From positions 1-64,000 of the forward strand of contig JAUJOD010000004.1 in the NCBI GenBank assembly GCA_030447865.1: DNA of 64,000 bases, written 5' to 3'. The translations under genes were made by a program, and so were the position numbers. A model generated the notes under the pieces. That model was not told where the DNA came from. It saw only the letters and a program-made list of their open reading frames with translations, and searched no databases. This document shows positions 5,177 through 60,359 of the stretch, one piece after another; the first letter of the stretch is position 1, and the number at the start of each line of letters is the position of its first letter. Origin of the DNA: Nocardioidaceae bacterium. Lineage in GTDB: Bacteria > Actinomycetota > Actinomycetes > Propionibacteriales > Nocardioidaceae.

Positions 5177-5207
5177 GTATGCATGATGTATGGCTCCTGG
5201 GCACGCT
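5177..5207 (+). promoter_or_regulatory. SARP-type box for the BtrH-like gene at 5244
   Basis: GTA at 5177-5179 and GTA at 5188-5190 are 8 bases apart; CACGCT at 5202-5207 is the -10-like element 11 bases further on. The predicted transcript starts near 5214, leaving a leader of about 30 bases that contains the AGGAGG at 5230-5235. Confidence 0.6.
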
Positions 5208-5243
5208 GCTGGATGGCGGACGCGAGGACGAGGAGGTATAGCG

Positions 5244-6275
5244 GTGGGCGCAAGCAAACCGGTGAAGCCTCGGATTGAGCTGGATCCCCGCGATGCGCTG
5301 GGCTGGCGTGACATTCCGCTGGACGGCCTGAACTGTTACCTGCGCTCGGTCGAGGCGATCCTGCGCAGCCACGGTCACCGCCGCGACGACGTCCTCGCGG
5401 CCATGTCCGGGCCGGTCACCGACGACATGCCGGCCGACGGCAGCCCGTGGTTCCGGCTGAACGGGTCGCGCGCGCAGCTGACGGCGGCGCTGGACGGCGG
5501 CTCCCTCTGGCCGAGCATCGAGAGCGATCTGCGCGCCGGCACCCCGGTGATCGTGTTCCCGGACTACTACTACTGGCCTGGCAGCCGCTTCCGGCATCGC
5601 CGCCATGTGCACGACCACGCCATCCTGCTGACCGAGATCCGGGGAAACTCGGTTGAGTACCTGGACATCGACGCAGAGCGGCGGGACGGGTTCCGGGCCA
5701 GCGTGTCGGTCGACGACGACGTCGCGCAGGCCTTCCGCCGCGTACTCGCCGTCGAACCGGCGCCGCCCGCGCCGAGGCAGTCGCCGGACGAGCTGCGACG
5801 GATCGTGGCCGCCTCGGTGGCGCCGCTGACGCGCTGGGTCCAGGGCGTCCGGGCGCTAGCGGCGTGGTGGCGCGACGACGCTTACCCGGGCCTCGCCCAC
5901 GCCGTCGAGTGGTGGATCTTCAGCGACCTTCAGTCTCAGCTCTTCCTGATGGCCGAGCAGTGCGCTGAGATCGACGACGGCCGGCTTGTCCCGGCTGCCC
6001 GGGCCGCGACCACGCAGGCGCAGAAAGCCGGTCTGTTTCTGATCGCGATGAATGAGTACAAGTCGGAGGCACCGTACCGGCTGGCGGGCGACGACATTGC
6101 GTTGCTGGGCGACCGCCTGGCCACGCTCGCGTACGCTGCGGCCGAGTACGTGGCCGGCACGGTGGAGTTCGGTGCCGACCGCAACGGCGAGAAGTTGTGG
6201 CGCCGGCTCGACGCGTTGTCGCGCTGGCATGTGGGGATCCAGCTCCGGCCGCTTCAGGAGCCGGCGCTTGGCTGA
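5244..6275 (+). CDS. BtrH-like cysteine acyltransferase
   Basis: The GTG at 5244 follows AGGAGG at 5230-5235 and gives 343 residues. The N-terminal half resembles the butirosin BtrH N-domain: a cysteine-protease-like fold with Cys31 in GLNCYLRS, a buried strand TPVIVFPDYYYWPGS (residues 100-114), His125 in DHAILL and an Asp at 141 or 143. Established knowledge: BtrH moves an acyl chain from an acyl carrier protein to an amine. The C-terminal half (AHAVEWWIFSD, FLIAMNEYKSEAPY) is helical and conserved in the decayed copy at 36 kb. Inference: it acylates an amino-cyclitol or similar acceptor. No glutamyl-cyclotransferase (BtrG) partner was seen. Confidence 0.6.
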   Translation: MGASKPVKPRIELDPRDALGWRDIPLDGLNCYLRSVEAILRSHGHRRDDVLAAMSGPVTDDMPADGSPWFRLNGSRAQLTAALDGGSLWPSIESDLRAGTPVIVFPDYYYWPGSRFRHRRHVHDHAILLTEIRGNSVEYLDIDAERRDGFRASVSVDDDVAQAFRRVLAVEPAPPAPRQSPDELRRIVAASVAPLTRWVQGVRALAAWWRDDAYPGLAHAVEWWIFSDLQSQLFLMAEQCAEIDDGRLVPAARAATTQAQKAGLFLIAMNEYKSEAPYRLAGDDIALLGDRLATLAYAAAEYVAGTVEFGADRNGEKLWRRLDALSRWHVGIQLRPLQEPALG

Positions 6276-6284
6276 CCGGCGGCC

Positions 6285-6315
6285 GTACGGGTCCTGTATC
6301 GCGCCACGACAGCAT
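6285..6315 (+). promoter_or_regulatory. SARP-type box for the PhyH-VOC pair
   Basis: GTA 6285-6287, N8, GTA 6296-6298, N11, CAGCAT 6310-6315. The stretch closely resembles the box before the DegT gene on the minus strand at 17996-18026 (shared TGTAT.GCGCC and CAGCATCGG). Confidence 0.6.
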
Positions 6316-6376
6316 CGGCTCCGTTGTGTCCGTGCGCCGGATGGCCGGGCACCCGACTCATCAGATGGGAGACGCG

Positions 6377-7195: not shown

Positions 7196-7684
7196 ATGAC
7201 CACCGCACCGTCCACGCCGCCGACCACCGTCCCGGTGTTCCACCACGTCGGCATTCAGACCACCGACCTGGACAACGCGGTCGCCTGGTACGAGGACTTC
7301 TTCGGTGGCCGGAGGTCATGGTCGCTCACCGAATTCACGCCGCTGACCGAGAGCCGGTTGCCCGGCATCCGGGCGCTCACGGAGGTGGTCGTCGGAAATC
7401 TTCGAATTCACCTTTTCGAGCGGGACGGTGATCCCGCGGTGCCCGAGCAGAGTCGCACGCAGTTTCAGCATGTCTGCGTCTCAGTCGGGGATCCGGCGGA
7501 GCTGGCCAGCCTGCGCCGCCGGTGGTTCGAGCTGTACGGCTCCGGCCGGTATGCGTTCGCGCTGTCCGAGCAGGCGACTGGGATCGTGAACGACCATGAC
7601 GGTGTGCAGAGCTTCTACGCGCTCGATGTTAACGGGCTGGAGTTCGAGTTCACGTACGTTCCGCGGACGGCACCGACCCGGTGA
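7196..7684 (+). CDS. VOC dioxygenase, LmbB1-like (possible L-DOPA 2,3-dioxygenase)
   Basis: This 162-residue vicinal-oxygen-chelate protein has two beta-alpha-beta-beta-beta modules. Candidate metal ligands are His in FHHVGIQTTDL (residues 15-16), His in FQHVCVSV and Glu in LEFEFTYVP near the C-terminus. The SRLPGI and QSFYALDVNGLEFEF stretches resemble the small extradiol dioxygenases that open L-DOPA in lincomycin, hormaomycin and anthramycin-type pathways. That is from family memory, not a search. The possible tyrosine hydroxylase at 12.9 kb would supply its substrate. A generic glyoxalase-fold protein is the alternative. Confidence 0.5.
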   Translation: MTTAPSTPPTTVPVFHHVGIQTTDLDNAVAWYEDFFGGRRSWSLTEFTPLTESRLPGIRALTEVVVGNLRIHLFERDGDPAVPEQSRTQFQHVCVSVGDPAELASLRRRWFELYGSGRYAFALSEQATGIVNDHDGVQSFYALDVNGLEFEFTYVPRTAPTR

Positions 7685-9064: not shown

Positions 9065-10645
9065 TCAGTGCAGCGCCGGGACGACCGCCTCGACAAGGTG
9101 CGGCCCGGGCTCGGCCATCGCACGGCACAGCAGCCCCCGCAGCTCCCCAGCGGTATGCGCACGACCAGCCGGCACGCCCATCCCGCGGGCCAGTGCGAGG
9201 AAGTCGATGGCCGGCGAGGACAGGTCGAACGAAGCCGAACCTACGACCGAACGCGTTGCGGCCTGCCGGCGCGCCTCCCGCCGCAGAATCGAGTAGCCGC
9301 CGTTGTTGAGGATCAGCGTAGTCACGTTCAGACTCTCCCGGGCCAGAGTCCACAGCGCGCTAATCGTGTACATAGCGCTGCCGTCCCCCTGGAGGCAGAG
9401 CACCGGACGGCCCGCCCCGAGCGCCGCGCCGACTGCGAGCGGCATTCCGTCACCGATGGCGAATCCGCTCACCGTCAGCAGATCGTGCGGCGCGGCGCCG
9501 GACAGGGCCGCGCCCAGGGGGCCGCCGTAGGTATTGGATTCGTCGACTACCACGGCGTCCGCTGGCAGGACTGTGGACACCACACCGGCCATTGATTCCG
9601 CATCGAGCGGCGCCACCGGGTCGATAATCACCCGTTCGGAGGCCCGGGGTGAGCTTTCCGGTGGTACGCCCGTGGCGAGCTCGTCCGCCAGGGTGTCCAG
9701 CGCCGCCACCGCCTCCGCACCAGATCCACCTAGTCGGTGGATCACCGCGGTCGGCGGCGTTAAGAGTGAACGCTCACCGGGGGACGGGAACGGGGCCACC
9801 GGCGGCTGCGCGTCGACCAGCACCACGTGGCAGGCTGCGGCCAGCCGGGCCCGGGCGGTGACCGGATCGCCACTCAGCCGGCCGATCGGCGGGCGTCCGG
9901 CCCCCTGCGCCAGTCGTCGGGGAAACGCCTCGGCGACCACGGTCGCCCCGGTGGCGCGAGCGATCCGGGAGGCTGCAGTGAGGCTCACCGGGCCGAGCGC
10001 CGCACCGCCGAGCAGCAGGGTCGTGTGCGGGCCCTCCTCGGTGAGCAGGTCTTCGACCCCTCCGCTGACCTCGCTTGGGGGCCAGGCCGCTCCGCTCACC
10101 TCGCCGGCCGGCGAGGTCGCTCCGGATTCCGCCGCCAGCGGGCCGCTGGGGCCGGCCGCGACGTCCGACGGCACGAGCAGCGTCGCCACCCCGCCCGGCG
10201 GACCGCTCGCGGCCGCTACGGCTGCGAGCGCGTCGGCGCTCAACCTGGTCGGATCACAACATCTGTGAACGAAGGTGGAAATAGGCCGCGCGAGCGATGC
10301 GACATCGCAGGACAACGGGCCTTCGACGCCGTCGTGTGCTGCCGCGCCGGTGCCGACCAGGACCACGACGGGCGTACCGGCTCGCCGCGCGTTGTGCAGG
10401 TTCGCGAGCCCGTTGGCCAGTCCCGCGCCCTGGTGCAGCAGCGCAGCGGCCGGGGCTGCGGCAAGCCTGCCGAAGCCGTCGGCCGCGCCGGTCGCCACGC
10501 CTTCGAAAAGGCACAGCACGCTGTGTAGTTCGGCGCGTTCCTCGACGGCCCCGAGCAGGTGCAGCTCGGACGTGCCGGGGTTGCTGAAGAATGCCCGGAC
10601 ACCTGCCCTGGTCAGCGACGCCACCAGGGCTTGGGCGCCGTTCAC
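9065..10645 (-). CDS. Thiamine-diphosphate-dependent enzyme (decarboxylase/ligase family)
   Basis: A 526-residue protein of the acetolactate synthase / benzoylformate decarboxylase superfamily. The N-terminal Pyr domain shows FFSNPGTSELHLLGAV and FEGVATGAADGFGR, with the cofactor-activating Glu in FEG. The C-terminal PP domain has the binding motif GDGSAMYTISALW followed by LNNGGYSILRRE. The central region is Ala/Pro-rich and looks degenerate as an FAD site, arguing against a true acetolactate synthase. The GTG start overlaps the upstream LLM stop (GTGA, 10642-10645), so the two are translationally coupled. Likely role: decarboxylation or C-C bond formation on a 2-oxo acid. Confidence 0.75.
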   Translation of the reverse strand: MNGAQALVASLTRAGVRAFFSNPGTSELHLLGAVEERAELHSVLCLFEGVATGAADGFGRLAAAPAAALLHQGAGLANGLANLHNARRAGTPVVVLVGTGAAAHDGVEGPLSCDVASLARPISTFVHRCCDPTRLSADALAAVAAASGPPGGVATLLVPSDVAAGPSGPLAAESGATSPAGEVSGAAWPPSEVSGGVEDLLTEEGPHTTLLLGGAALGPVSLTAASRIARATGATVVAEAFPRRLAQGAGRPPIGRLSGDPVTARARLAAACHVVLVDAQPPVAPFPSPGERSLLTPPTAVIHRLGGSGAEAVAALDTLADELATGVPPESSPRASERVIIDPVAPLDAESMAGVVSTVLPADAVVVDESNTYGGPLGAALSGAAPHDLLTVSGFAIGDGMPLAVGAALGAGRPVLCLQGDGSAMYTISALWTLARESLNVTTLILNNGGYSILRREARRQAATRSVVGSASFDLSSPAIDFLALARGMGVPAGRAHTAGELRGLLCRAMAEPGPHLVEAVVPALH

Positions 10646-11541
10646 GTGAGCCCCACCGGTACCGCGCCGCCCAGCATCGGGGCGATCCGCTCGAGAATCG
10701 CCGGATCGCCGGCGAAGGGTGAATCGGGACGCGGCCAGAACACCAGCATGTCGCTGAAGCCGAGCTCAGCGAACATGCCGCGGGCGTCAGCGAATGCCTG
10801 GGCCGACTCGAGCACGCCGCCGATCTGCGCGCCGGCTACCACCATGCGGTTCAGGCCGTCCGCGTCACGTCCCTCGGCGCGGCAGGCCTCGGCCAGTCTG
10901 CGCAGTTGGCCGGCGAGCATCGGTCGCGCGCGGTCGAAGCGGGTGGGGCTGGTGCAGCCCGGTATCCCGATCGTGAGCCACGTCTGCGCGTGCCGGGCGG
11001 CCAGTCGGAGGCCCCGCGGACCCGCGGCGGCGAGCGCGAACGGCACCCGCGGGCGCTGCAGGCAGCCGGGGTTCATCATCACCGCCTCGGACCGGTAGTG
11101 CTCGCCCCGGTAGGTGGTCTCGTCGTGGCGCAGCAGCGTGTCGAGCAGCGTCACGAATTCCTCGAACCGGTCCGCCAGCCGCGCCGGCCCGAGTTCCGGC
11201 AGGCCCAGCGCCGCGGCATCGTAGCCTGCGGCGCCGGCCCCGACGCCGCAGATGAACCGCCCGCCGGAGATGTCGTCGAGCGTCATCACCTCTTTGGCGA
11301 ACGTCACCGGATGCCGCAGGTACGGACTGGCGACCAAGGTGCCGATCCGGATCCGTCGGGTCACCCCGGCGGCCGCGGTCAGAGTTGGCAGTGCGGAGAA
11401 CCAGGGCGCCTGACGCAGCGAGCGCCACATCAGGTGGTCGAAGGTCCAGGCGTGGTCGAATCCGAGCTGCTCCGCGCGACGCCATCGTTCGGCCGCCTCG
11501 ATCCACCTGAGTTCCGGCAGCAACACGACGCCGTGGCGCAT
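10642..11541 (-). CDS. LLM-family (F420-type) oxidoreductase
   Basis: A 299-residue luciferase-like TIM-barrel protein, with EAAERWRRAEQLGFDHAWTF near the N-terminus, IRIGTLVASPYLRHPVTFAK, and LDDISGGRFICGVGAG for cofactor binding. GGGAGG lies 5 bases before ATG 11541. Related reductases use F420H2 (LmbY type) while others use FMNH2 for monooxygenation; sequence reading alone cannot decide. It leads the two-gene operon with the TPP enzyme, transcribed from the box at 11588-11618. Paralogues lie at 39.5 and 46.3 kb and a fragment at 18.9 kb. Confidence 0.75.
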   Translation of the reverse strand: MRHGVVLLPELRWIEAAERWRRAEQLGFDHAWTFDHLMWRSLRQAPWFSALPTLTAAAGVTRRIRIGTLVASPYLRHPVTFAKEVMTLDDISGGRFICGVGAGAAGYDAAALGLPELGPARLADRFEEFVTLLDTLLRHDETTYRGEHYRSEAVMMNPGCLQRPRVPFALAAAGPRGLRLAARHAQTWLTIGIPGCTSPTRFDRARPMLAGQLRRLAEACRAEGRDADGLNRMVVAGAQIGGVLESAQAFADARGMFAELGFSDMLVFWPRPDSPFAGDPAILERIAPMLGGAVPVGLT

Positions 11542-11587: not shown

Positions 11588-11618
11588 ACATTCGAGGAAG
11601 TCCATACGCGACCACTAC
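11588..11618 (-). promoter_or_regulatory. SARP-type box for the LLM-TPP operon
   Basis: On the minus strand, GTA (11618-11616), N8, GTA (11607-11605), N11, GAATGT (11593-11588). It sits back to back with the plus-strand box starting at 11621, only 2 bases between the outer triplets. Confidence 0.6.
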
Positions 11619-11620: not shown

Positions 11621-11651
11621 GTATCCGCGTTGTACCGCCGGCTCGGACGGT
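11621..11651 (+). promoter_or_regulatory. SARP-type box for the FAD oxidoreductase
   Basis: GTA 11621-11623, N8, GTA 11632-11634, N11, GACGGT 11646-11651. It is the divergent partner of the minus-strand box, making a compact two-way activator target. Confidence 0.6.
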
Positions 11652-11709: not shown

Positions 11710-12843
11710 ATGCCCGAGGTTGTGATCATCGGCGCCGGCGTCATTGGACTGTCCGTCGCCTGGTACCTCACCGAACGCGGTGTGCGCAGCGTGGTGGTGG
11801 AGCGGACCGCGATCGGCGCGGGGGCGACCGCGTGGCAGTCCGGCGGTGTGCGCGCGCAGTGGACAAGCGCAGAAAACTGCCGGATGGCGCTGGAATCGCA
11901 GGCGTTCTACAGGCAGCTCGACGACCGCCTCATGCCCCAGGTCAGCCCGCAGTTGGAGAGCTGTGGGTACGCGTTTGTCGCCCGCACGCCGGAGACGATG
12001 GAGTCCCTTCGCCGAGACGCCGCCGAGCAAAAGCGCCTCGGTGTACGGACCTCCGTGGTCGACGCCGGGCGGCTCGCCGAGCTGGTACCCGGTCTGAACA
12101 CTGATGCGGTCGTGGGCGGCGTCTACAACGGGCACGACGGATACTTCGCGCGACCGCAGGCGGTCGCCCCGGCATTCGCCCGAGCGGCACGGCGGGCCGG
12201 GGCGGAGATCCACTTTGGGACGGCCCGCCGGCTGCTACTGGACCGAGCGGGCTGGACCGTGGAGCTCGCGAACGGCGTCCGGATCGTCGCCTCCGACGTC
12301 GTGCTCGCGGCCGGGCTCGGCAATCCCGGTCTGCTCGACTCGCTGGGATCGCCACTCCCGATCGGCCGAGCGCCGAAGCGCATGTTCCTGAGCCGGCCGC
12401 GGGATCGTTGCCTGGTGCGGCCGCAGATGGTCTTCGTGGACGAGGGCTTCTCCGTTAAGCACCTAGCTGACGGCCGGTTGATCGCCGGGCACTCGCCGCC
12501 CGGGGGCATACCGACACCGGATCCCGACGTGGGCCGCGGTGCGGTCGAGACGGTCGGTCCACGGCTCATCGCGACGCTCGAGGGTACGGGCTACCCCTGG
12601 ACGATCGATGGTTACTACGACACCAGCCCCGATGCGCAGCTGGTCGTGGGCGCGGTCCCCGACCATCCCCGGCTGTGGATTGCCGGGGCAATGAACGGCC
12701 GCGGAATGATGCTGGCACCGAGCGTCGGCCGGATGGTCGCGGAATCGATCGCGACCGGTGATCCGGAACCCATTCCAACCGCCCTGCAACCAGACCGATT
12801 CGCCGGCCGGGAAAGCGTCACCGGTGAGACTCGGACAATCTGA
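11710..12843 (+). CDS. FAD-dependent oxidoreductase (D-amino acid/glycine oxidase family)
   Basis: A 377-residue DAO-family flavoprotein. The N-terminal Rossmann motif is VVIIGAGVIGLSVAWYLTER, ending in the acidic VVVER for FAD ribose binding. GAGATAWQSGGVRAQW is the usual FAD-proximal loop, and the C-terminus has WIAGAMNGRGMMLAPSVGR, the second FAD-binding strand. AAAGGA just upstream of ATG 11710 serves as ribosome binding site. Members oxidise C-N bonds of amines or amino acids. It is monocistronic under its own box; a broken relative lies at 61.8 kb. Substrate unknown, though an amine intermediate of this cluster is likely. Confidence 0.75.
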   Translation: MPEVVIIGAGVIGLSVAWYLTERGVRSVVVERTAIGAGATAWQSGGVRAQWTSAENCRMALESQAFYRQLDDRLMPQVSPQLESCGYAFVARTPETMESLRRDAAEQKRLGVRTSVVDAGRLAELVPGLNTDAVVGGVYNGHDGYFARPQAVAPAFARAARRAGAEIHFGTARRLLLDRAGWTVELANGVRIVASDVVLAAGLGNPGLLDSLGSPLPIGRAPKRMFLSRPRDRCLVRPQMVFVDEGFSVKHLADGRLIAGHSPPGGIPTPDPDVGRGAVETVGPRLIATLEGTGYPWTIDGYYDTSPDAQLVVGAVPDHPRLWIAGAMNGRGMMLAPSVGRMVAESIATGDPEPIPTALQPDRFAGRESVTGETRTI

Positions 12844-12862: not shown

Positions 12863-12893
12863 GTATCGAGCACATATTGGTCCCGTTCACCGT
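12863..12893 (+). promoter_or_regulatory. SARP-type box for the hydroxylase/flavoprotein operon
   Basis: GTA 12863-12865, N8, ATA 12874-12876, N11, CACCGT 12888-12893. The second triplet is ATA instead of GTA. Confidence 0.5.
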
Positions 12894-15677: not shown

Positions 15678-15721
15678 GATCACCGCGTCCGGCGGGCGAC
15701 GAACCCGGCGACGCGGTGATC
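15678..15721. terminator. Hairpin between convergent genes
   Basis: GATCACCGCGTC (15678-15689) and GACGCGGTGATC (15710-15721) are perfect reverse complements with a 20-base loop. The hairpin fills the 47-base gap between two convergent genes and touches the stop of the Gfo/Idh gene, as expected for a bidirectional terminator. There is no clear T-run on either side. Confidence 0.6.
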
Positions 15722-16721
15722 ATGCCACGGCGTGCGCCTTAAGGAGCCGGGTGGCGACCAGGCACCGATCCAGTGCCTGCGCGCTGGTCTCCGCTCCCGG
15801 CGCCTCGTCGTCCCCCAGCGCGAAAGCGGCAAGCTCCGCCCGTACGCCTGCTCGGAAGGCGCCTGGTTCGCCGTCGCGCTGCTTCCGGTGATGGACGACG
15901 CCACCGGCAAGCCGGGTGGTTACGCTCCAGGTCGGTTCCATCTGCAGGAACGCGGCGCCCAGGGTACCCAGCACCTCGGTGCGTACGTCGTCGGCGTAGC
16001 GGCAGTTGAGCGACAGGTCCACGGTGACCGTGGCGCCCTGCTCGGCGCGGCCGACGATTGTGACGTTGTCGACCTCCCCCATCGCGGCGATCGCCGGGTC
16101 GACCGCGAGCCCACGGACCACAACGGGGTCCCCGATCGGGCACCCCAGCCAGGCCGCTAGGTCGAACTCGTGGATGCCGCAGTCCACGACGAGCCCGCCG
16201 CTGACCGACGGGTCGTAGAAACCCGGCGGCGGAGGGTCGGCGTCCCACTGCACCGCCCGGACAGCGATGATCTGTCCGAGGTGCTCCTCGGCCGCCGCAC
16301 GCAGCAGTCGGAAGGGCGCGGCGTACCGCCGCCAGAAGCCCACCTGCAACCGCAGGCCACGGTCGCTTGCTAGCCGGCCGAGTGCCCGGCTCTCGTCGAC
16401 GTCAAGCGTGAGCGGCTTCTCGCAGAAGACATCCAGCCCGGCATCGAGTCCGGCCCGGACGTCGATCGCGTGCCGGTTGGAGGGGGTGGCGATCAGGGTG
16501 CAATCCGCGCCGACGGCCGAGGCCGCGTCCGCCAGATCGGCGAAGACGGGCACGTCTTCCGGCACCCGGGCGGCCGCCGCCTCGGCCGCCACGCGGTTCA
16601 CGTCGACGAGGGCGACCACGTGGATCAGGCCGGTCGCGAGCGCCTCGCCAAGCACGACCGATCCCATCCGACCCAGTCCGGCCACGATCGCGCGGCGCGG
16701 TTGAGCATCCGCCGGGCTCAT
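15720..16721 (-). CDS. Gfo/Idh/MocA-type NAD(P)-dependent dehydrogenase
   Basis: A 333-residue sugar or cyclitol dehydrogenase. The N-terminal Rossmann motif is AIVAGLGRMGSVVLGEALAT and the catalytic-Lys motif EKP is in FCEKPLTLDVDES. The C-terminal domain holds SGGLVVDCGIHEFDLAAWLG with the conserved Asp and His. The ATG at 16721 overlaps the DegT stop (ATGA). Established knowledge: this family paired with DegT enzymes converts an alcohol to a ketone for transamination, as in inositol to scyllo-inosose. Inference: with Ino1 at 59 kb it forms an amino-cyclitol. A remnant with the same C-terminal motifs lies at 34.8 kb. Confidence 0.8.
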   Translation of the reverse strand: MSPADAQPRRAIVAGLGRMGSVVLGEALATGLIHVVALVDVNRVAAEAAAARVPEDVPVFADLADAASAVGADCTLIATPSNRHAIDVRAGLDAGLDVFCEKPLTLDVDESRALGRLASDRGLRLQVGFWRRYAAPFRLLRAAAEEHLGQIIAVRAVQWDADPPPPGFYDPSVSGGLVVDCGIHEFDLAAWLGCPIGDPVVVRGLAVDPAIAAMGEVDNVTIVGRAEQGATVTVDLSLNCRYADDVRTEVLGTLGAAFLQMEPTWSVTTRLAGGVVHHRKQRDGEPGAFRAGVRAELAAFALGDDEAPGAETSAQALDRCLVATRLLKAHAVA

Positions 16722-17989
16722 CCCGCGATCACCTTGGCGACCGCCTCGGCGATGTCGTACATGTCGCGCTCCTCGGCGAGGAGGGTGCTGTGGTGCGTCA
16801 CGACGCTGTGGTCGGCGAAGAAGTCGGAGTTGGGGAAGCGGCGGCCCTGGTTCACCGCCATGAAGTCGTCGGTCAGCGGTCGCAGGGTCCGCTTGTTCCA
16901 CGGCCGCAACAGGCGGCTGGTGTGCAGCGGGGCGTCGGTCGGATAGAAAGCGGTGCCCAGCTCCGCGGTGAGCGCTTCGCCGAGCTGAACCACGTTCATG
17001 CCGCGGGGCAGCGGGTCGAAGATCAGCGGCAGCTCGTAGATGGACATCCGGCTCTGTTCCGGGGCGGGCTGCAGCACGGACACGCCGTCGACCTCCGCGA
17101 GCAGGCTGGTCAAGAGACGATGGTTGCCGTTGCGCCGCTCGTGCTGCTGCTGCAGGATGCCGAGCTGCGCACAGAGAACGGCCGAGTTGAACTCGCTGAT
17201 GCAGAAGTTGGAGCCCATCGTGGTCGCCGTCTCGATCACCTCGAGCTCGCCCCTACGGCCCCGGTCCTTCCGGTAGCTGCGCGAGTCGGCGCGAAGCTCC
17301 TGCAGGGTGTGTGCCCGGCTGTCGCTGTTGCTCACGACCGCGCCGCCCTCGCCGGCGCTGAGGACCTTCCCGTGCTGAAAGCTGAAACAGCCCAGCTGGC
17401 CCATCGTGCCCGCGCCTCGGCCGCCCCACTCGGCACCGTGCGCCTGCGCGCAGTCTTCAATCATCGCGATCCCGTGCGGGGCGCCGGCGGCGACGAGCGC
17501 CGGAACATCGGCCATGCAGCAGGACCAGTGCACCACGACCGCAGCCTTGGCGTTCACCGTGAGGTCGAGGTTGTCTGCGCCGAGACAGCCGGTCACCGGG
17601 TCGACGTCGACCAGCACCGGCACGAGGCCGGCGCGGAGCGCCGCTGAGGCGGAGGCGACCCAGGTGAGCCCGGGGACCAAAACCCGGTCGCCGAAGTCCA
17701 GCCCCAGCGACTCGAGCGCCACCACCAGCGCGCTGGACCCGTGATCGACCGGGATGCAGTGACGCACGCCGACGTAATTCGCGAAGCTCTGCGCGAAGGT
17801 ACGCTCAAACAGCTCGGTGGAACCGAGCGGGCTGCTGATCGCCCATCTCCCGCTATGCAGGACGGCCTCGAGGTTCTGCGCGGCGCCCGGGGCCGGCTCT
17901 GGCCAGACGGGCCAGCGCTGCTCCGCCGACCGGATCGGCTCGCCTCCGTCGATGGCCAGCGTTGCAATTTTCGCATCGGTTATGCTCAT
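16718..17989 (-). CDS. DegT/StrS aminotransferase, cyclitol type (BtrS/StsC-like)
   Basis: A 423-residue PLP enzyme. The Schiff-base Lys is K208 in CFSFQHGKVLSAGEGGAVV; MIEDCAQAHGAEW supplies the cofactor-binding Asp. SGRWAISSPLGS, VLVPGLTWVASASA, ELRADSRSY and GSNFCISEFNSAVL closely recall glutamine:2-deoxy-scyllo-inosose aminotransferase of butirosin (BtrS) and StsC of streptomycin. It would put an amine on an inosose using glutamine. The ATG lies 6 bases after the predicted -10, so the transcript may be leaderless. An N-terminal fragment of a paralogue is at 34.6 kb. AHBA-synthase-like activity is the main alternative. Confidence 0.7.
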   Translation of the reverse strand: MSITDAKIATLAIDGGEPIRSAEQRWPVWPEPAPGAAQNLEAVLHSGRWAISSPLGSTELFERTFAQSFANYVGVRHCIPVDHGSSALVVALESLGLDFGDRVLVPGLTWVASASAALRAGLVPVLVDVDPVTGCLGADNLDLTVNAKAAVVVHWSCCMADVPALVAAGAPHGIAMIEDCAQAHGAEWGGRGAGTMGQLGCFSFQHGKVLSAGEGGAVVSNSDSRAHTLQELRADSRSYRKDRGRRGELEVIETATTMGSNFCISEFNSAVLCAQLGILQQQHERRNGNHRLLTSLLAEVDGVSVLQPAPEQSRMSIYELPLIFDPLPRGMNVVQLGEALTAELGTAFYPTDAPLHTSRLLRPWNKRTLRPLTDDFMAVNQGRRFPNSDFFADHSVVTHHSTLLAEERDMYDIAEAVAKVIAG

Positions 17990-17995: not shown

Positions 17996-18026
17996 ATGCT
18001 GGGAAGGCGCAATACAGACGCCGTAT
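17996..18026 (-). promoter_or_regulatory. SARP-type box for the DegT-Gfo/Idh operon
   Basis: Minus strand: ATA (18026-18024), N8, GTA (18015-18013), N11, CAGCAT (18001-17996). The ATG at 17989 coincides with the expected transcription start. Confidence 0.55.
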
Positions 18027-22661: not shown

Positions 22662-22692
22662 ACGGTCGGCAGCGGGTCTACACCGGCGATAC
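22662..22692 (-). promoter_or_regulatory. SARP-type box for the ATP-grasp gene
   Basis: Minus strand: GTA (22692-22690), N8, GTA (22681-22679), N11, GACCGT (22667-22662). The ATG at 22655 lies 6 bases beyond the -10-like element, consistent with a leaderless start. Confidence 0.6.
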
Positions 22693-22715: not shown

Positions 22716-22746
22716 GTAGGGCCGTTGTATCGCGGCGAGCCAGGAT
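22716..22746 (+). promoter_or_regulatory. SARP-type box before the broken ACP gene
   Basis: GTA 22716-22718, N8, GTA 22727-22729, N11, CAGGAT 22741-22746. The box is intact although the gene it drives is frameshifted. It diverges from the ATP-grasp box, with 23 bases between them. Confidence 0.6.
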
Positions 22747-22779: not shown

Positions 22780-23025
22780 ATGATCACCGACACTGAGCTC
22801 TGCGAGACGATCAGCCGACTGCTCGTCGTGGACGATCACCCGAGCGCCGACCTGGAGGTCACACCCACGACCCCGCTGGCCGAAGGGCGGCCTCGAGCTG
22901 ACGTCGCTCGACCCTGTACGCATCCTGGTGGGCCTCGAGGAGTCCTTCGGCATCGAAATCGCCGACGAGGCGATCATGGACTTCTCGTTCGAGTCGGTCA
23001 CCGACATCACCCCTCCTTGTCCGCA
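22780..23025 (+). pseudogene. Acyl carrier protein, frameshifted
   Basis: The first 35 or so codons read MITDTELCETISRLLVV and then LEVTPTTPLAEG. A one-base frame change near 22885 is followed by GLELTSLDPVRILVGLEESF and GIEIADEAIMDFSFESVTDI, a normal carrier-protein body with the phosphopantetheine Ser in LTSLD. A second disturbance removes the stop. The spacing is otherwise that of an 80-85-residue ACP. A single-base sequencing error cannot be excluded for the first frameshift. Its position opposite an ATP-grasp ligase suggests a former ligase-ACP pair. Confidence 0.65.
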
Positions 23026-24292: not shown

Positions 24293-24323
24293 ACTGTCTC
24301 CTGACGTCATACGTCGTCGATAT
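24293..24323 (-). promoter_or_regulatory. SARP-type box for the P450 gene
   Basis: Minus strand: ATA (24323-24321), N8, GTA (24312-24310), N11, GACAGT (24298-24293). A leader of about 20 bases with GAGGA precedes the ATG. Confidence 0.55.
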
Positions 24324-26627: not shown

Positions 26628-26658
26628 GTATCGCCGGTGTAGTCGGGCCGGCAATCGT
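26628..26658 (+). promoter_or_regulatory. SARP-type box for the dihydroxybenzoate operon
   Basis: GTA 26628-26630, N8, GTA 26639-26641, N11, AATCGT 26653-26658. It would drive seven genes from 26732 to 33433. The leader of about 70 bases carries AAGGAGG at 26721-26727. Confidence 0.55.
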
Positions 26659-27397: not shown

Positions 27398-27401
27398 CAC
27401 C

Positions 27402-31220: not shown

Positions 31221-31227
31221 GGCCGCG

Positions 31228-33446: not shown

Positions 33447-33477
33447 GTAGTCGAGATGTATCGGCCGTCGGCAGTGT
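33447..33477 (+). promoter_or_regulatory. SARP-type box for the DAHP synthase gene
   Basis: GTA 33447-33449, N8, GTA 33458-33460, N11, CAGTGT 33472-33477. The GTG at 33484 falls at the expected transcription start, so the message may be leaderless. Confidence 0.6.
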
Positions 33478-33483: not shown

Positions 33484-34581
33484 GTGACGATGGTCGTAGT
33501 GTTGGCCGGCGACAGCACGCCCGCGCATCGGGCCGAGGTCATCAGGCGGGTCCGGGCCACCGGGGCGACGGTGGCGGCACGCTCGCCGGAACTCCTGGTC
33601 GTCGGCGGTGGCCGGCCGGACGCCGGGGCGTACCTGGCCGAACTGCCTCAGGTCGTCAACGTGGCCACGCTCACCGCGGAGTATCCGTTGGTGGCGGCCG
33701 AATCCCGCTGCCAGGAGCCCAGCGTGGTAAGCATCGCCGGCTGCCGCATCGGACCGCACGGCTTCGCGGTCATCGCCGGGCCGTGCGCGGTGGAGTCCCG
33801 TGACCAGCTGGTCACGATCGCCCGGGCCGCCCGCGAGGCCGGCTGCCACGTGCTGCGCGGCGGCGCCTTCAAGCCCCGCACCAGCCCATACTCGTTCCAG
33901 GGGCTCGGGTTGGCCGGACTCGATCTGCTGGCCGAGGCCCGCGAACTCACCGGTCTACCGTTCGTCACCGAGGTGCTCGATGTGCGCATGGCCGAACGGG
34001 TGGCGGCCGTGGCCGACGCCGTTCAGGTAGGCGCCCGCAACATGCAGAACTATCCGCTGCTGCGCGAAGTGGGCCGGCTCGAACGGCCGGTCGTGCTCAA
34101 GCGAGGTCCGGCCGCCACCATCGACGAGACGCTCTTGGCCGCCGAGCACATCCTGGCCGCTGGCAACGACCGAGTCGTCATCTGCGAACGCGGCATCCGC
34201 ACGTTCGAGCCTGGATACCGTTTCACCCTCGATCTGGCCGCGGTCACGGTACTGCGCGAACGCACCCACCTGCCCGTCATCGTGGACCCCAGCCACGCGG
34301 CCGGGGCGACCCGCCGGGTGCCCCCGCTGGCCCTCGCCGCGGCCGCGGCGGGGGCCGACGGGGTGATGGTCGAGGTTCACCACGATCCGGCCACCGCCCG
34401 CTGCGACGGTCAGCAGGCTCTCTCGCCGTGCCAGCTGCAGGAGCTGACCAGGTCCCTGCGGCTGGCTGCGGGCGCGGCCGGTCGGACGCTCAACCCGACC
34501 CCCGCGGACACCCTGGTGGCCCCGGCCTTGGCGGCAAACCCGGTGCCCGTATCGGCGACGCCGGCTGTAGAACCGTTGTAG
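33484..34581 (+). CDS. 3-deoxy-7-phosphoheptulonate (DAHP) synthase, type I-beta
   Basis: A 365-residue enzyme condensing PEP and erythrose 4-phosphate, the first shikimate step. The N-terminal 75 residues resemble the ferredoxin-like regulatory domain of I-beta enzymes. The barrel shows FAVIAGPCAVESRDQLV (metal Cys), LRGGAFKPRTSPYSFQGLG, QVGARNMQNYPLL, VLKRGPAATIDETL, ICERGIRTFEP and VDPSHAAGATRRV (metal His). As a cluster-located copy it boosts chorismate for the dihydroxybenzoate branch, and possibly tyrosine for the putative hydroxylase. It is a single-gene unit with its own box. Confidence 0.92.
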   Translation: MTMVVVLAGDSTPAHRAEVIRRVRATGATVAARSPELLVVGGGRPDAGAYLAELPQVVNVATLTAEYPLVAAESRCQEPSVVSIAGCRIGPHGFAVIAGPCAVESRDQLVTIARAAREAGCHVLRGGAFKPRTSPYSFQGLGLAGLDLLAEARELTGLPFVTEVLDVRMAERVAAVADAVQVGARNMQNYPLLREVGRLERPVVLKRGPAATIDETLLAAEHILAAGNDRVVICERGIRTFEPGYRFTLDLAAVTVLRERTHLPVIVDPSHAAGATRRVPPLALAAAAAGADGVMVEVHHDPATARCDGQQALSPCQLQELTRSLRLAAGAAGRTLNPTPADTLVAPALAANPVPVSATPAVEPL

Positions 34582-34608
34582 GCCTGTTGTATCGCGTGGC
34601 CAGAGCTT
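34567..34608 (+). promoter_or_regulatory. Triple-repeat SARP-type box before the pseudogene block
   Basis: GTA occurs at 34567-34569, 34578-34580 and 34589-34591, each 11 bases apart, followed after N11 by GAGCTT at 34603-34608. The ATG of the DegT remnant is at 34614. A well-formed box in front of dead genes dates the decay as recent. Confidence 0.6.
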
Positions 34609-34613: not shown

Positions 34614-34790
34614 ATGAACGTGACGCCGGTGCGAGACAGCCGGTTGGCCATCGACGGCGGAAAGCCGGTGCGGCCACCGGGCCGGACATGGCCGTTCTGG
34701 CCCCGGCTGGCGGCGAAGGCCGCCGGACCTGGACGCCGTGGTGAAGAGTGGGCGCTGGGCGATCGCGACCGTTTCGGCTCCTACGGGAGG
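34614..34790 (+). pseudogene. DegT aminotransferase, N-terminal remnant
   Basis: LAIDGGKPVRPPGRTWPFWP copies the N-terminus of the DegT enzyme at 17.99 kb (LAIDGGEPIRSAEQRWPVWP). GDRDRFGSYG follows in a disturbed frame where the intact gene has SGRWAIS. Everything beyond about 55 residues, including the PLP Lys, is deleted, and the sequence passes directly into the Gfo/Idh remnant. The upstream promoter region also matches that of the intact gene. Confidence 0.7.
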
Positions 34791-34793
34791 CCC

Positions 34794-35368: not shown

Positions 35369-35397
35369 AAGGGGACGGCGCCGGGGAGGAAGCGCCG

Positions 35398-38221: not shown

Positions 38222-38241
38222 GGTGAGCGACCTCCTCCCCA

Positions 38242-39516: not shown

Positions 39517-39547
39517 CGTCGGTTTCGTTGTCCACACACCCCTTCGG

Positions 39548-40456: not shown

Positions 40457-40469
40457 CGGTCCGCCCCTG

Positions 40470-41448: not shown

Positions 41449-41490
41449 AATCTAGGCGCGCGAGATACACGCCGCCTACGATTCGGCTAC
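41449..41490 (-). promoter_or_regulatory. Triple-repeat SARP-type box for the dioxygenase operon
   Basis: Minus strand: GTA (41490-41488), GTA (41479-41477) and GTA (41468-41466), each 11 bases apart, then N11 and TAGATT (41454-41449), the best -10 of the set. The outermost triplet overlaps the stop codon region of the upstream LanB-like gene. Confidence 0.65.
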
Positions 41491-43790: not shown

Positions 43791-43830
43791 GACCCTCCCC
43801 GACTTGTGCGTCGGGGCCGATCATGCGGCT

Positions 43831-43861
43831 CGGGTCTACGGCACCGATACAGGCCGCCTAC
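43831..43861 (-). promoter_or_regulatory. SARP-type box for the LanB-like gene
   Basis: Minus strand: GTA (43861-43859), N8, GTA (43850-43848). At the standard spacing the hexamer is GACCCG, a poor -10; TAGACC two bases closer is better. It overlaps the stop of the upstream ATP-grasp gene. Confidence 0.5.
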
Positions 43862-46210: not shown

Positions 46211-46241
46211 AGGGTGGGGGGGTCGGATATGCCGCCGCTAC
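46211..46241 (-). promoter_or_regulatory. SARP-type box for the amidinotransferase operon
   Basis: Minus strand: GTA (46241-46239), N8, ATA (46230-46228), N11, CACCCT (46216-46211). The second triplet is ATA. Confidence 0.5.
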
Positions 46242-47215: not shown

Positions 47216-47246
47216 GTATGGCCGGTGTAGCGGCACGGATCAGCGT
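47216..47246 (+). promoter_or_regulatory. SARP-type box for the carrier-protein operon
   Basis: GTA 47216-47218, N8, GTA 47227-47229, N11, CAGCGT 47241-47246. ATG 47254 lies 7 bases later, a probable leaderless start for an eight-gene operon. Confidence 0.6.
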
Positions 47247-55486: not shown

Positions 55487-56668
55487 TCACGCTGACGCCG
55501 GCGACCCGCGGGCGAACGCGCGGCACAGGCCATCGATGTCGGTCAGCTCATCCGCGGCCACGTCGGACGGCAGCAGCACGCCGAGCGTGCGCTCGACCCG
55601 GTCGATCAGGCGGACGAGTTGGAACGAGTCGAAGCCCGACAGCGACCGCAGCGGCAGTTGGGGGTTGACGTCGCGGTCGTCGAGCCCGAGCGTGGCGCCG
55701 AGGGCTCCTCGTACGGCGGCGGCCAGGGCGGGATCCGGACCGCCGATCGACCGGTCCAGGCACTCCTGGGCGAAGCGGATGTCCGCCCGCAACTGCTCGG
55801 CGATGTCGTCGATGAGACCATTCTGGACGCTTCCCCCGCGCTCCAACCGCCGGAGCGCGAGGAAGCTGTGCGCGGCCAGCTGCTCCCAGGCGCCGGCCCG
55901 CTCGATCGCCGCGGCGGCCACGGGATGGTCCGGGCCCAGCCACGCGGTGTGGAGGCGCCGCTCCCGGCCCAGCAGCCAGACGTCCAGCACCAGACCCCTG
56001 ATCACCTCGGGGTCGACCAGGCGCTCGCGGCGCTCCGCGACGTAGCGCTCGACGCCGGGCGCCGCCGCGCGTGCCCGCTGTGCGTTGTCGGCGAGCGCGG
56101 CGGTGGTGTCCAGGGCCGGCGGGCCGTTATCGAGCTCGACCGACGCCACTAACGCGTTCTCACCCACCGCAGAACGCAGGGCACGAGCGCTCAACGCCCA
56201 GGCGCCGGGCCGGGCCGGGCCCCATGGGGTGTCGTTGTGGTAGGGGTCGACGACGAGAATGTCATCCACGCGCGACTCGACCAGGAAACCGTGGTCCATG
56301 TGACTACGACGGTGGTATGGCAGCCAGGGCAGCGCGAACGCATCGGCGACGACGTACACGGGTCCGGCCGCGCAGAGGCGGGCGAGGTCACACGGATCGT
56401 GACGCTGGCCGATCCGCAGCCCCAGCAGATCGCGGGCCTGGGCCAGCCGCTGCTCCGGGCCGGGCTGGACGCCGGTCGTCGCGTCGGCCTGCCGGCCCGG
56501 CATGCTCCAGCGCGAGCCGAGACGGAGGTGGGTTCCGCGGCCATGCGCGTCGTCGGCGATGAGCGCGAGCGTGGTCTGCAGGCAGTCCAGGGCATCTGCC
56601 CGGAGGCCAGCCAGTGCCGCGCACCACCGATGTCGATGGACCGGCCGCGGTCCGGCGTTGGCGGTCAC
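55487..56668 (-). CDS. BtrH-like acyltransferase fused to an acyl carrier protein
   Basis: A 393-residue two-domain protein. The N-terminal part has a BtrH-type triad: Cys29 in ADALDCLQTTL, His126 in SHMDHGFLV and Asp141 in ILVVDPYHND, with the buried strand GPVYVVADAFALPWLPYH between. The middle (residues 150-310) is helical. The C-terminal 80 residues form a carrier domain with Ser348 in LRSLSGFDSFQLVRLID. GTG 56668 has GGGAGG upstream and lies at the predicted transcription start. Such a fusion would let the enzyme keep its own acyl donor. I know of no described protein with this pairing, but could not search. Confidence 0.65.
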   Translation of the reverse strand: MTANAGPRPVHRHRWCAALAGLRADALDCLQTTLALIADDAHGRGTHLRLGSRWSMPGRQADATTGVQPGPEQRLAQARDLLGLRIGQRHDPCDLARLCAAGPVYVVADAFALPWLPYHRRSHMDHGFLVESRVDDILVVDPYHNDTPWGPARPGAWALSARALRSAVGENALVASVELDNGPPALDTTAALADNAQRARAAAPGVERYVAERRERLVDPEVIRGLVLDVWLLGRERRLHTAWLGPDHPVAAAAIERAGAWEQLAAHSFLALRRLERGGSVQNGLIDDIAEQLRADIRFAQECLDRSIGGPDPALAAAVRGALGATLGLDDRDVNPQLPLRSLSGFDSFQLVRLIDRVERTLGVLLPSDVAADELTDIDGLCRAFARGSPASA

Positions 56669-56675: not shown

Positions 56676-56706
56676 AGCCTCCCGCGTACCCGTACAGGCG
56701 TCGTAC
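56676..56706 (-). promoter_or_regulatory. SARP-type box for the BtrH-ACP fusion gene
   Basis: Minus strand: GTA (56706-56704), N8, GTA (56695-56693), N11, GAGGCT (56681-56676), then GTG at 56668. Confidence 0.55.
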
Positions 56707-58370: not shown

Positions 58371-59047
58371 AGCTCATCCACTGCGGCGACGAGGATAGGG
58401 CTGGCCGAGAGCACGGCGACGGCGGCAGCGTAACCGTCGGGGACCGTGAGATCGGACATGCTGGCGCGCAGGTTGGGGCGCGGGCCGTACCGCAGCAGCC
58501 CGGCCGGTTCGGCGGCCGGCGTGACGGTCAAATCGGACATCGGCGCCCGCAGGCCGTCCCCGGTGGCCTTGACCATCGCCTCCTTGCGAACCCAGTACCG
58601 GAAGAACTCGGCTGCACTGCGGGCCGCCTCGCCCGGTGCGAGCACGCGCTGGGCGAGGCCGGCCGGATCGATGTCGGCGCGCACGCGTTCGACATCGACA
58701 CCGACCGGTACGCCCTCGGTCAGGGCGAACAGAACCCGGTCGGCGGAGTGCGAGATCGATAGCGCCAGGCTGCATCCCGGCAGCGTCGGCCGGCCGTGCT
58801 GTCGTCCACAATGGTCGCAGGTCCGGTCTATGACGACCCGTTCGGGAGCGAAGCCGAGCCGACGCCCGACCGCCACCTTCGCCAGTACCGAGCCGAGGGT
58901 GAACCGAGTCCGGTCGGCCTCCCGCCGGAGCCCGGCGCGGCGCTTGCGTTCCGAGGCGCTGAGCAGGCGCACGTGTTCCGGCCGCTCCCGGCCGAGGTCG
59001 ACGGACCACACCTCGACCTCGACCTGGTGTACCTCAACGTCGATCAC
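58367..59047 (-). CDS. 4'-phosphopantetheinyl transferase (Sfp type)
   Basis: A 226-residue enzyme that arms carrier proteins with phosphopantetheine from CoA. SLALSISHSADRVLFAL, VPVGVDVERVRADID (Mg-binding Asp and Glu) and YWVRKEAMVKATGDGL (WxxKEA) are the family signatures. It should activate the free ACP and the BtrH-fused ACP. GTG 59047 overlaps the Ino1 stop (GTGA). An imperfect repeat of PMSDLTV near residues 180-206 gives two nearly identical short segments, an unusual local duplication. Confidence 0.88.
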   Translation of the reverse strand: MIDVEVHQVEVEVWSVDLGRERPEHVRLLSASERKRRAGLRREADRTRFTLGSVLAKVAVGRRLGFAPERVVIDRTCDHCGRQHGRPTLPGCSLALSISHSADRVLFALTEGVPVGVDVERVRADIDPAGLAQRVLAPGEAARSAAEFFRYWVRKEAMVKATGDGLRAPMSDLTVTPAAEPAGLLRYGPRPNLRASMSDLTVPDGYAAAVAVLSASPILVAAVDEL

Positions 59048-60228
59048 AGACCCGGCGGCCGATCGAGGGCGTTCGCCCACGCGGTGAGCATCCGGAACTG
59101 CGCCGCCAGGGAGTGTTCGGAAGTGCCTATCGGGTCCTTGAAGAAGAACGCCAGCTGGGTGATCGGGCCGCGCTGCCCGGCGGCATGCCCGGCCGCGACG
59201 AGGCGGGTCAGGTCGAGAACCAGCGGCGCCGCCAGCGTCGAGTCCACGCCGCACCAGGTCACCTGCATCGACATCCGCACGCCCAGAAAACCCTCGAACG
59301 AGACGTGGTCCCAGGCCGTCTTGTGGTCCCCGAGGTCCGGCACGTTGTCTATGTGCAGCGGCGCCTTCACATCCTCGCCGAGCAGCGACTGGAGCACGCT
59401 CGACTTGGAGGTGAGTTTGCTGCTGGCGATGTGCGGATCCTCCAGCGTGGCACCGTCGCCCCCGCCGAGCAGGTTGATGCCGGCCCACGACAACACGCGC
59501 AGCTGCCGTACCGCGAACATCGGGGCCAGGACCGTCCGTAGCAGGGTCTCGCCGGTCTTGCCGTCGGAGCCGGCGAACGGAACGCCCCGCCGCTGAGCCA
59601 GCGCAGTCAGCGCCGGCAGCCGGGCGCCGGTCGACGGGGTGAAGTCGACGAACGGGCAGCCGGCCTGGAATGCGGCATACGCTACGACCGAACTGGGTGG
59701 CAGGACGAGCCGGTCCGGCTGCGACAGGGCAGCCGCCATCGCGTCGGGGTCGCCGTGCTCGGGCTGGCCCGGGAACGGCGCCTCGGTCGAGGCGATGTTC
59801 ACGACGACCACGCGCTCCAGGCCGTGCCGGCTGCGGAAGTCGCCGATGTCAGACGCGAGCCGGTCCACGGCGTCCGCCTGCGTGCCCGGGTGAGTCGCCG
59901 GGTCGTACCCGGTCCGTACCTCCCGCTCGATGGCCGCGAGCCCGCGCCGTACCGGCGACAGCACCGGCCGTGGGATCACCCCGTTGTCGACGAGCATCTC
60001 GGCGCGCTTCTCCAGCGGCGTGCCGAGGATGTCGTGGCCACCGACCACGATCTCCGACCACGGGACCAGCGGGGCGCGGTCCAGCGCAGGGGAGTCGGTC
60101 ACGCAACCAGTGCTCGGCATCAGGTTGTCCCTCACCGCGAGCAGGCCGGTGATGGCAGTCGTCGCCACCGAGCCCCGCGCGCCGTTGAGCCAGAGCCCGA
60201 TGGGCGAGGCATGACTGCTAGCGGTCAC
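59044..60228 (-). CDS. ino1: myo-Inositol-1-phosphate synthase
   Basis: A 394-residue enzyme that cyclises glucose 6-phosphate to inositol phosphate with NAD. LWLNGARGSVATTAITGLLA is the dinucleotide loop, VVVNIASTEAPFPGQPEHGD the next block, VPFAGSDGKTGETLLRTVLA carries the catalytic Lys, and LGDHKTAWDHVSFEGFLGVR the second catalytic Lys. A dedicated copy in a cluster normally feeds a cyclitol pathway, as in hygromycin A. It heads an operon with PPTase and carbamoyltransferase. GTG 60228 has GAAGGGGA upstream. Confidence 0.88.
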   Translation of the reverse strand: MTASSHASPIGLWLNGARGSVATTAITGLLAVRDNLMPSTGCVTDSPALDRAPLVPWSEIVVGGHDILGTPLEKRAEMLVDNGVIPRPVLSPVRRGLAAIEREVRTGYDPATHPGTQADAVDRLASDIGDFRSRHGLERVVVVNIASTEAPFPGQPEHGDPDAMAAALSQPDRLVLPPSSVVAYAAFQAGCPFVDFTPSTGARLPALTALAQRRGVPFAGSDGKTGETLLRTVLAPMFAVRQLRVLSWAGINLLGGGDGATLEDPHIASSKLTSKSSVLQSLLGEDVKAPLHIDNVPDLGDHKTAWDHVSFEGFLGVRMSMQVTWCGVDSTLAAPLVLDLTRLVAAGHAAGQRGPITQLAFFFKDPIGTSEHSLAAQFRMLTAWANALDRPPGL

Positions 60229-60267
60229 GGATTCCCCTTCGACGCAGCGTTGTTAGCTCCTTCAGCC

Positions 60268-60298
60268 AGGTTCGCCCGGCCGGATACAGCACGGCTAC
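60268..60298 (-). promoter_or_regulatory. SARP-type box for the Ino1-PPTase-carbamoyltransferase operon
   Basis: Minus strand: GTA (60298-60296), N8, GTA (60287-60285), N11, GAACCT (60273-60268). It diverges from the box for the condensation enzyme, 30 bases away. Confidence 0.55.
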
Positions 60299-60328
60299 GG
60301 CCGTACTGGCCGGCGCGTCGGCCACCGT

Positions 60329-60359
60329 GTACCGACGATGTACTCGGACCGGCGAGGGT
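60329..60359 (+). promoter_or_regulatory. SARP-type box for the condensation enzyme
   Basis: GTA 60329-60331, N8, GTA 60340-60342, N11, GAGGGT 60354-60359. The in-frame GTG at 60366 lies 6 bases later and decided the start of the gene. Confidence 0.55.

Follow-up and report, generated by a model that had tools for sequence, protein, structure and literature searches.

A putative SARP regulon with TGTA-type promoter boxes before nearly every operon of a natural-product cluster

Introduction

SARPs (Streptomyces antibiotic regulatory proteins) are the standard switches to awaken silent antibiotic clusters; their operators are short and degenerate, and in the papers cited here, few promoters are described per SARP. 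SARP operators are direct repeats with 11 or 22 bp between the repeats, and the 3' copy is located 8 bp from the -10 element (PMC10936776). In the cryo-EM structure of AfsR, two side-by-side protomers carry region 4 of the sigma factor, replacing the usual -35 contact, and the native afsS promoter of Streptomyces coelicolor has a sub-standard -10 hexamer, CACTGT (PMC10936776). The AfsR repeat reads CGTT(T/C)ATCGNN (PMC10972967). For SanG, PolR and PimR the heptamer is CGGCAAG (PMC5930380), for PapR2 it is GTCAGSS (PMC7040171), and for CcaR six targets are named (PMC3992018). Here, we analyze a window of 64,000 nucleotides from a Nocardioidaceae bacterium, in which an initial annotation had noticed GTA repeats followed by a -10-like hexamer before nearly every operon and had ascribed this architecture to a SARP. 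The window corresponds to bases 1-64000 of contig C8, the coordinates of which continue those of the window; the genome comprises 3,117,807 bases. Our work indicates that these boxes are very probably the operators of one cluster-situated SARP, encoded just beyond the window, that would bind and activate them.

The boxes resemble the AfsR operator in several respects: the repeats follow each other at 11 bp, the 3' repeat is 8 bp away from the putative -10 element, and this hexamer is sub-standard, here mostly C/GANNNT. The geometry first proposed for the window, i. e. an 11-bp pitch and a TGTATCG heptamer that ends 8 bp before the hexamer, is indeed that of the published SARP operators (PMC10936776). 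By hand count, the AfsR repeat aligns in register with TGTATCG, and with the hexamer set at -12 to -7, TGTATCG occupies -38 to -32, again the register of the AfsR repeat. The core differs, however: it is TGTA in the boxes studied here and TTCA for AfsR. Like CcaR, SanG, PolR and PapR2, the SARP studied here would be a cluster-situated activator with heptameric direct repeats, of which some operators contain three (PMC10972967, PMC3992018, PMC7040171, PMC5930380). Again, the heptamer TGTATCG differs from CGGCAAG and GTCAGSS, and 24 full boxes contrast with the six targets named for CcaR in the portion of the literature cited.

Results

The pattern RTA-N8-RTA-N11-NANNNT was run over the window, the contig and the whole genome. 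An earlier reader had built it on the window itself, which makes the window count partly circular: it found 20 matches, as compared to a mean of 0.16 and a maximum of 2 in 100 dinucleotide shuffles of the window. The 18 sites listed initially, with the low coordinate of each box given for the minus strand, and a doubtful nineteenth are all present in the sequence. Since the pattern had been fitted to the window, the flank C8:64001-76000, which had been hidden from that reader, provides a fair test: it contains five matches, whereas 0.028 would be expected (p ~1e-10). Of the 32 matches in the genome, C8:5177-75821 contains 25; another is at C8:118284, and the remaining six are in other places. 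The reversed pattern gave 8. Thus, 25 of the 32 matches are concentrated in 70.6 kb, or 2.3% of the genome (binomial p ~2e-35), and the expectation that the pattern is rare outside the cluster was borne out. When the elements were kept fixed and both gaps were varied (132 spacing pairs, C8:1-76000), the 8/11 spacing yielded 25 matches, 19 with GTA in both repeats, and each other tested pair 0-2. In agreement with an 11-bp pitch, GTA-N8-GTA alone occurs 32 times in C8:1-76000 but nine times in C8:80001-307147. A weight matrix trained on 24 sites (excluding the one at 56318(-)) detects, at 14 bits or more, 24 sites in the cluster, which are the training sites themselves, and 0 in the remaining 230.6 kb of C8; at 10 bits, it detects 30 in the cluster versus 3 in the rest of C8, and 2 in the 166,720 bases sampled from other contigs. 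The left-one-out scores of the 24 sites range from 9.8 to 28.8.

It may be argued that the pattern reflects chance due to composition or a loose fit to one window: it was built there by eye, and a GTA-only version gave 2-18 matches in each of ten other genomes, about the level of the backward control. GTA-only matches away from SARP neighbourhoods are noise; a single match of this kind in another genome (G091:C22:240) was inspected and set aside. The shuffles, the genome count, the unseen flank, the spacing table and the related loci described below all oppose chance, the probability of which we regard as negligible.

As stated in the initial annotation, there is no SARP gene in the window. 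A search of the flanks had been advised, and a search of the genome for the BTAD family at an E value of 0.001 gave one match, C8:65556-65993(-), inside an open reading frame (ORF) just past the right edge:

C8:64464-66287, minus strand: SARP gene, 607-residue ORF; its near (3') end is 464 bp past the right edge of the window

Pfam identifies Trans_reg_C (1.7e-06), BTAD (8.6e-37) and NB-ARC in this protein, the domain set of a SARP, and gives no TPR match. Its closest solved relative is AfsR (E 1.9e-84, over residues 2-594), with which it shares an OmpR-type DNA-binding domain followed by BTAD and NB-ARC/NOD domains. AfsR, however, has 993 residues with a TPR domain and is a global regulator, whereas the C8 SARP is located in a cluster. 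The gene has a box of its own, 66524-66494(-): the hexamer is followed by six bases and the ATG of a 67-residue ORF, the TGA of which overlaps the ATG of the SARP gene (ATGA). This arrangement suggests autoregulation with coupled translation. The 67-residue ORF (C8:66284-66487(-)) contains an RHGES stretch and is histidine-phosphatase-like by eye; Pfam gave no match.

The boxes of the window and the genes that follow them are:

5177..5207, plus strand: SARP-type promoter box before ORF 5244-6275; exact pattern, GTG start 36 nt past the hexamer
6285..6315, plus strand: box before a PhyH-like gene (to 7192) and a VOC/glyoxalase-like gene, 7196-7684
11588..11618, minus strand: box before a luciferase-like gene, 10642-11541, and a TPP-enzyme gene, 9065-10645
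11621..11651, plus strand: box before an FAD-dependent oxidoreductase gene, 11710-12843
12863..12893, plus strand: box (GTA/ATA) before ORFs ending at 13864 and 15672
17996..18026, minus strand: box before a DegT aminotransferase gene, 16718-17989 (putative leaderless ATG, 6 nt past the hexamer), and a GFO/IDH/MocA gene, 15720-16721
22662..22692, minus strand: box before an ATP-grasp gene, 21405-22655 (putative leaderless ATG)
22716..22746, plus strand: box before an ORF at 22780 that resembles an acyl carrier protein (ACP), apparently frameshifted
24293..24323, minus strand: box before a cytochrome P450 gene, 23078-24265
26628..26658, plus strand: box before an isochorismatase/SDR/chorismate-binding/AMP-ligase/sulfotransferase/AlkZ-like run, 26732-33433
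33447..33477, plus strand: box before a DAHP synthase gene, 33484-34581 (putative leaderless GTG)
34567..34608, plus strand: triple in-phase repeat and -10 before ORF 34614-35771 (putative leaderless ATG); canonical box 34578-34608
41449..41490, minus strand: triple in-phase repeat and -10 before a TauD-like/luciferase-like/transaldolase-like run, 37076-41441 (putative leaderless ATG); canonical box 41449-41479
43820..43861, minus strand: triple in-phase repeat and -10 (CATGAT) before a lantibiotic-dehydratase-like gene, 41487-43790; canonical box 43820-43850
46211..46241, minus strand: box (GTA/ATA) before genes ending at 45115 and 43858
47216..47246, plus strand: box before an AMP-ligase gene ending at 48753 (putative leaderless ATG) and a run to 55481
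56676..56706, minus strand: box before a gene ending at 55487 (putative leaderless GTG; PP-binding domain)
60268..60298, minus strand: box before a myo-inositol-1-phosphate-synthase-like gene, 59044-60228, a phosphopantetheinyl transferase (PPTase) gene and a carbamoyltransferase gene
60329..60359, plus strand: box before a condensation-domain gene ending at 61823 (putative leaderless GTG)
56288-56318, minus strand: additional match inside a gene

Beyond the window, five further boxes follow on the same contig:

C8:66494-66524, minus strand: box upstream of the SARP gene
C8:70660-70690, minus strand: box before a sulfotransferase gene, 69739-70653, and a cupin-like gene, 68723-69742
C8:71163-71193, plus strand: box before broken P450-like frames (likeness by eye)
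C8:75196-75226, plus strand: box before a VOC-like frame with an in-frame stop (by eye)
C8:75791-75821, plus strand: box before a truncated copy of the ATP-grasp gene

The boxed operons cover chorismate-type, AMP-ligase, condensation, carrier, P450, luciferase-like, carbamoyltransferase, sulfotransferase, aminotransferase and PPTase functions, and this set of functions identifies the region as a natural-product cluster. Three sites contain triple repeats (34567, 41490(-), 43861(-)), two of which had already been described. At 34567, the position given initially is that of the first of the three repeats; the canonical box with the -10 element starts at 34578. The third, at 43831(-), had been recorded as a repeat with a poor -10. 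The frame 43831-43861 indeed has GACCCG, but one repeat further, 43820-43850(-) is canonical with CATGAT; the poor -10 was thus rejected, as the -10 element comes after the third repeat. Counting two weaker boxes, 71105(-) and 75186(-), there are five divergent box pairs; the tightest is the head-to-head pair 11618(-)/11621(+), with 2 bp between the first repeats.

The location of the boxes relative to genes was checked as proposed at the outset: in the cluster, 24 of the 25 matches precede a gene or a broken gene. With gene starts called blind to the boxes (64 calls), 17 of the 25 are found within -60 to +210 of a start on the same strand (random 11%, p ~4e-11). The remaining eight fall into several groups: for 6285, 22692 and 56706, the called start probably lies upstream of the true one, the gene behind 34578 was missed by the gene caller, and 22716, 75196 and 75791 precede broken frames. 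The match at 56318(-), which sits inside a gene and is probably due to chance, was rejected as a promoter. The ACP gene at 71040(-) and the ABC-transporter operon at 75011(-) have both repeats, and position 2 of the hexamer is not A.

In the sequence of the boxes, TGTA forms the repeat, and the base after this core is T, C or G, with no A in any of the 48 repeats. The commonest heptamer is TGTATCG (8 of 48). The core TA is invariant and preceded by G, rarely by A, the first letter of the hexamer is C or G in 22 of 24 sites, and the N11 counted from GTA leaves 8 bp between the end of the heptamer and the hexamer, as in known SARP operators. The key positions are fixed, and most spacer and flanking columns vary freely between sites. 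This bears on the idea that one promoter was spread by gene duplication within the cluster and that not every inherited copy is maintained as a regulatory site. Copies do exist among the boxed genes, such as the ATP-grasp gene 22655(-) and its truncated copy 75838(+), which have box and start spacing in common, and several boxed genes are broken, most of them at the right end. However, free spacers and flanks next to fixed key positions argue against mere inheritance, as does the fact that the boxed genes belong to many unrelated families; we consider this explanation very improbable. As to the broken-looking genes, they are the frameshifted ACP-like ORF at 22780-23000, the P450-like pieces at C8:71275-72425 and the VOC-like frame with an in-frame stop at C8:75226-75750, all behind intact boxes; the resemblance of the ORF at 22780 to the ACP C8:70750-71040 was judged by eye, and neither frame has a Pfam match. 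These genes may reflect cluster decay or assembly errors.

At some boxes, the start codon closely follows the hexamer. An in-frame ATG or GTG 5-7 bases past the hexamer, a range that was picked after the sites had been inspected, which weakens the test, is present at nine of the 25 sites, whereas 153 shifted controls average 1.0 and never exceed 4:

18026-, 22692-, 33447+, 34578+, 41479-, 47216+, 56706-, 60329+, 70690-: sites with an in-frame ATG/GTG 5-7 bases past the hexamer

Hexamer shifts of 1 to 3, which give 1 to 8, overlap the 5-7 window and were left out of the control, and the stop codon of the ORF behind 34578 was added to the gene list by hand for this count. The spacing is as expected if the hexamers are -10 elements that serve leaderless mRNAs, with transcription presumably starting at these codons. 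Outside the cluster (C8:80001-307147, 170 ORFs), an excess at the leaderless position was seen for TANNNT alone (15 versus 6.7 in the control), a modest result; for hexamers with other first letters the counts and controls are 22/22 for C, 23/27.3 for G and 11/10.3 for A. As 22.2% of the mRNAs of Streptomyces avermitilis are leaderless (PMC8780764), leaderless starts as such are not new.

Relatives of the C8 SARP are present in at least 98 genomes. We examined 51 loci, namely those recovered by the searches, 40 chosen from these relatives mainly by score, and L041, which was chosen for its two GTA-only matches; 29 further loci came from a phylum-wide search with the DNA-binding domain. The flanks covered about 1.5 to 10 kb per side, so that absence of boxes is only local, and the helix of L044 was unreadable. 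A genus of the same order, g28, contributed 14 loci, one each from 14 of the 16 g28 genomes among the matches listed. Each of these 14 orthologue loci contains exactly two full boxes in the stretch examined, whereas only one of the 66 other SARP loci has any: L080, with one ATA/ATA match (Fisher test for 14 g28 loci versus 65 others as entered, p ~1e-14). The backward control gave 2 matches in 51 loci. The first g28 box lies 77-144 bp upstream of the SARP match on the opposite strand, and the second about 3.0-3.1 kb beyond the match start on the same strand, in L041 just 3' of the gene. At the 14 downstream sites, the flanking columns are mostly 0.36-0.79 conserved and AATGTA, TGTAT, A and T are invariant; GTA, A and T were set by the pattern, and AAT as well as the T on either side of the second core were free. 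The flanks of the upstream sites are more conserved.

In a tree of 82 rows, the C8 SARP is the sister of the 14 g28 SARPs (support 100/94), and it shares with them the boxes, mostly C/GANNNT hexamers, and the recognition helix PPRSA..N[IV]RTYV..LR; the g28 proteins have the helix PPRSATANIRTYVR.LRG in common. By its place in the tree, its boxes and its helix, it thus belongs to a proposed group of TGTA-box SARPs. AfsR falls elsewhere in the tree, the deep forks of which are weak, and this position together with the length of 607 residues and the missing TPR match does not point to an AfsR orthologue. The g28 systems also differ from that on C8: L041, the one scanned, has 994 residues with TPR, and its neighbours are unlike a natural-product cluster. 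No full box is present in the 4.7-4.8 kb examined around L027-L031, which are closest by whole-protein score, or in the flanks of L028 and L044, which adjoin the TGTA group in the tree. A SARP search of genome contigs added two distant loci, from Nocardia and Actinomadura, with no full box in 21 kb of each. The upstream g28 box, e. g. L041:2842-2872(-), points away from the SARP gene, in L041 toward the 3' end of a LemA-family gene on the opposite strand; the conserved GTACCGGGGGGAGG-like stretch that comes after the box may be a small RNA or a small gene. That the second g28 box might drive an afsS-like gene was rejected, since the downstream frames resemble a larger unrelated protein (by eye).

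A different OmpR-type regulator with 11-bp repeats, similar to PhoP or GlnR, or an alternative sigma factor might use the boxes, with the SARP being a bystander. In Streptomyces, the sequences recognised by PhoP and AfsR can overlap (PMC10972967), and several AfsR contact residues are changed in the C8 SARP. However, the concentration of the sites in the cluster of the SARP itself is at odds with a global PhoP/GlnR or sigma regulon, which should be scattered, the triple in-phase repeat is unlike a -35/-10 sigma promoter, and all 14 of the related g28 SARPs have such boxes next to their own genes. We therefore judge a different regulator to be unlikely.

Several observations weigh against the assignment of the boxes to the C8 SARP. 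In the cluster, one match, 56318(-), is intragenic, and a luciferase-like gene, 46292(+), has no box, with TAGAGT six bases before its ATG; it is the one clear exception to the claim that boxes precede nearly every operon, which otherwise holds. Sites one key base short of the pattern are only about twice as dense per kb in the cluster (15 in 71 kb) as in the rest of C8 (25 in 227 kb). In the protein, the kept residues speak for the assignment and the changed ones against it: five of the twelve DNA-contacting residues of AfsR are kept (W74, P79, R87, T88, R94) and seven differ (S46, Q48, S80, Q81, S91, R92, K95); of the six contacts called highly conserved (Q48, W74, P79, T88, R94, K95; PMC10936776), four remain. 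T88, which contacts the -36 base pair, is among these, and -36 is T here, though the search pattern fixes that T. R92, which contacts T-38, is Q. Of R59, D71, E76 and R173, the mutation of which weakens activation by AfsR (PMC10936776), only D71 is identical; E76 is replaced by D and R59 by H, and R173 aligns with A near a gap. These residue changes would fit a SARP with its own specificity. Moreover, the branches that join the g28 and the C8 SARPs are long (1.19 and 0.55) with unsettled bootstrap, and the 14 g28 SARPs, being orthologues, amount to one evolutionary case.

Some further features of the cluster are worth mentioning. A gene for an AlkZ-like DNA glycosylase (32327-33433(+)) lies within it, and the protein may provide self-resistance to a DNA-damaging product. 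The lantibiotic-dehydratase-like protein (41487-43790(-)) has 767 residues and no Pfam match; it has matches in two of 396 genomes, one being the genome of the window, and in 14 plasmid records, all below 60% identity, the best at 39% on a Streptomyces plasmid. The best plasmid locus has some enzyme types in common with the cluster, with no SARP annotated in the 42 kb examined; in a second plasmid locus, none is annotated in 32 kb. Without an annotated SARP, these loci were unusable as whole-cluster relatives for footprinting. Pieces of IS110-type transposases are found at the left edge of the cluster (3376-4092(-)) and inside it (24773-25408(+)). At the other end, the truncated ATP-grasp copy is followed, at C8:75939-75974, by the 3' portion of a tRNA-like gene (by eye, with the CAT anticodon region). 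This piece, the sole copy in the genome within 3 mismatches, precedes integrase-like frames (by eye). ARAGORN called no tRNA in C8:60001-80000. The tRNA-like piece may mark the right edge of an island.

Discussion

SARP operators as such are already known. As far as we have seen, the regulon described here is new, and its TGTA box apparently represents a new type: none was found in the open-licence literature, where absence is a weak argument. The locus stands out in that it is so complete (24 full boxes in 71 kb), that leaderless starts are predicted so often, and that box and helix are linked in a clade.

Following AfsR at afsS, we propose how these promoters might work. Two SARP protomers would bind side by side on the 11-bp repeats, and three where a third repeat is in phase. 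The SARP would sit just upstream of the sub-standard -10 element, stand in for the -35 element, and dock sigma region 4 and RNA polymerase. A single SARP could drive about 24 promoters in C8:5177-75821, its own included, so that the whole cluster would be switched on together, and at nine or more genes, transcription may begin on the start codon itself.

A broader proposal, for and against which we see the balance as even, is that SARPs with the helix N-[IV]-R-T-Y-V form a distinct clade that reads TGTA rather than TTCA, CGGCAAG or GTCAG, so that the operator might be predictable from the helix; in the C8 SARP, the residue at AfsR position 92 is not arginine. On C8, such a SARP would control essentially every operon of a 71-kb island, its own included, via near-identical, -35-less, often leaderless promoters that would be silent without it since their -10 elements lack the usual first T.

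The analysis provides 24 aligned operators of one likely SARP and a separate footprint from 14 related genomes. With this operator set, the motif can be given position by position, the promoter layout is fixed, and a hypothesis emerges on the helix residues that set specificity. The boxes also suggest which operons belong to the cluster, from about 5 to 76 kb of the contig. Since the same two-box switch precedes nearly every operon and a likely activator gene lies at the edge, one protein probably turns on the whole pathway, and expressing one gene may suffice to turn the cluster on.

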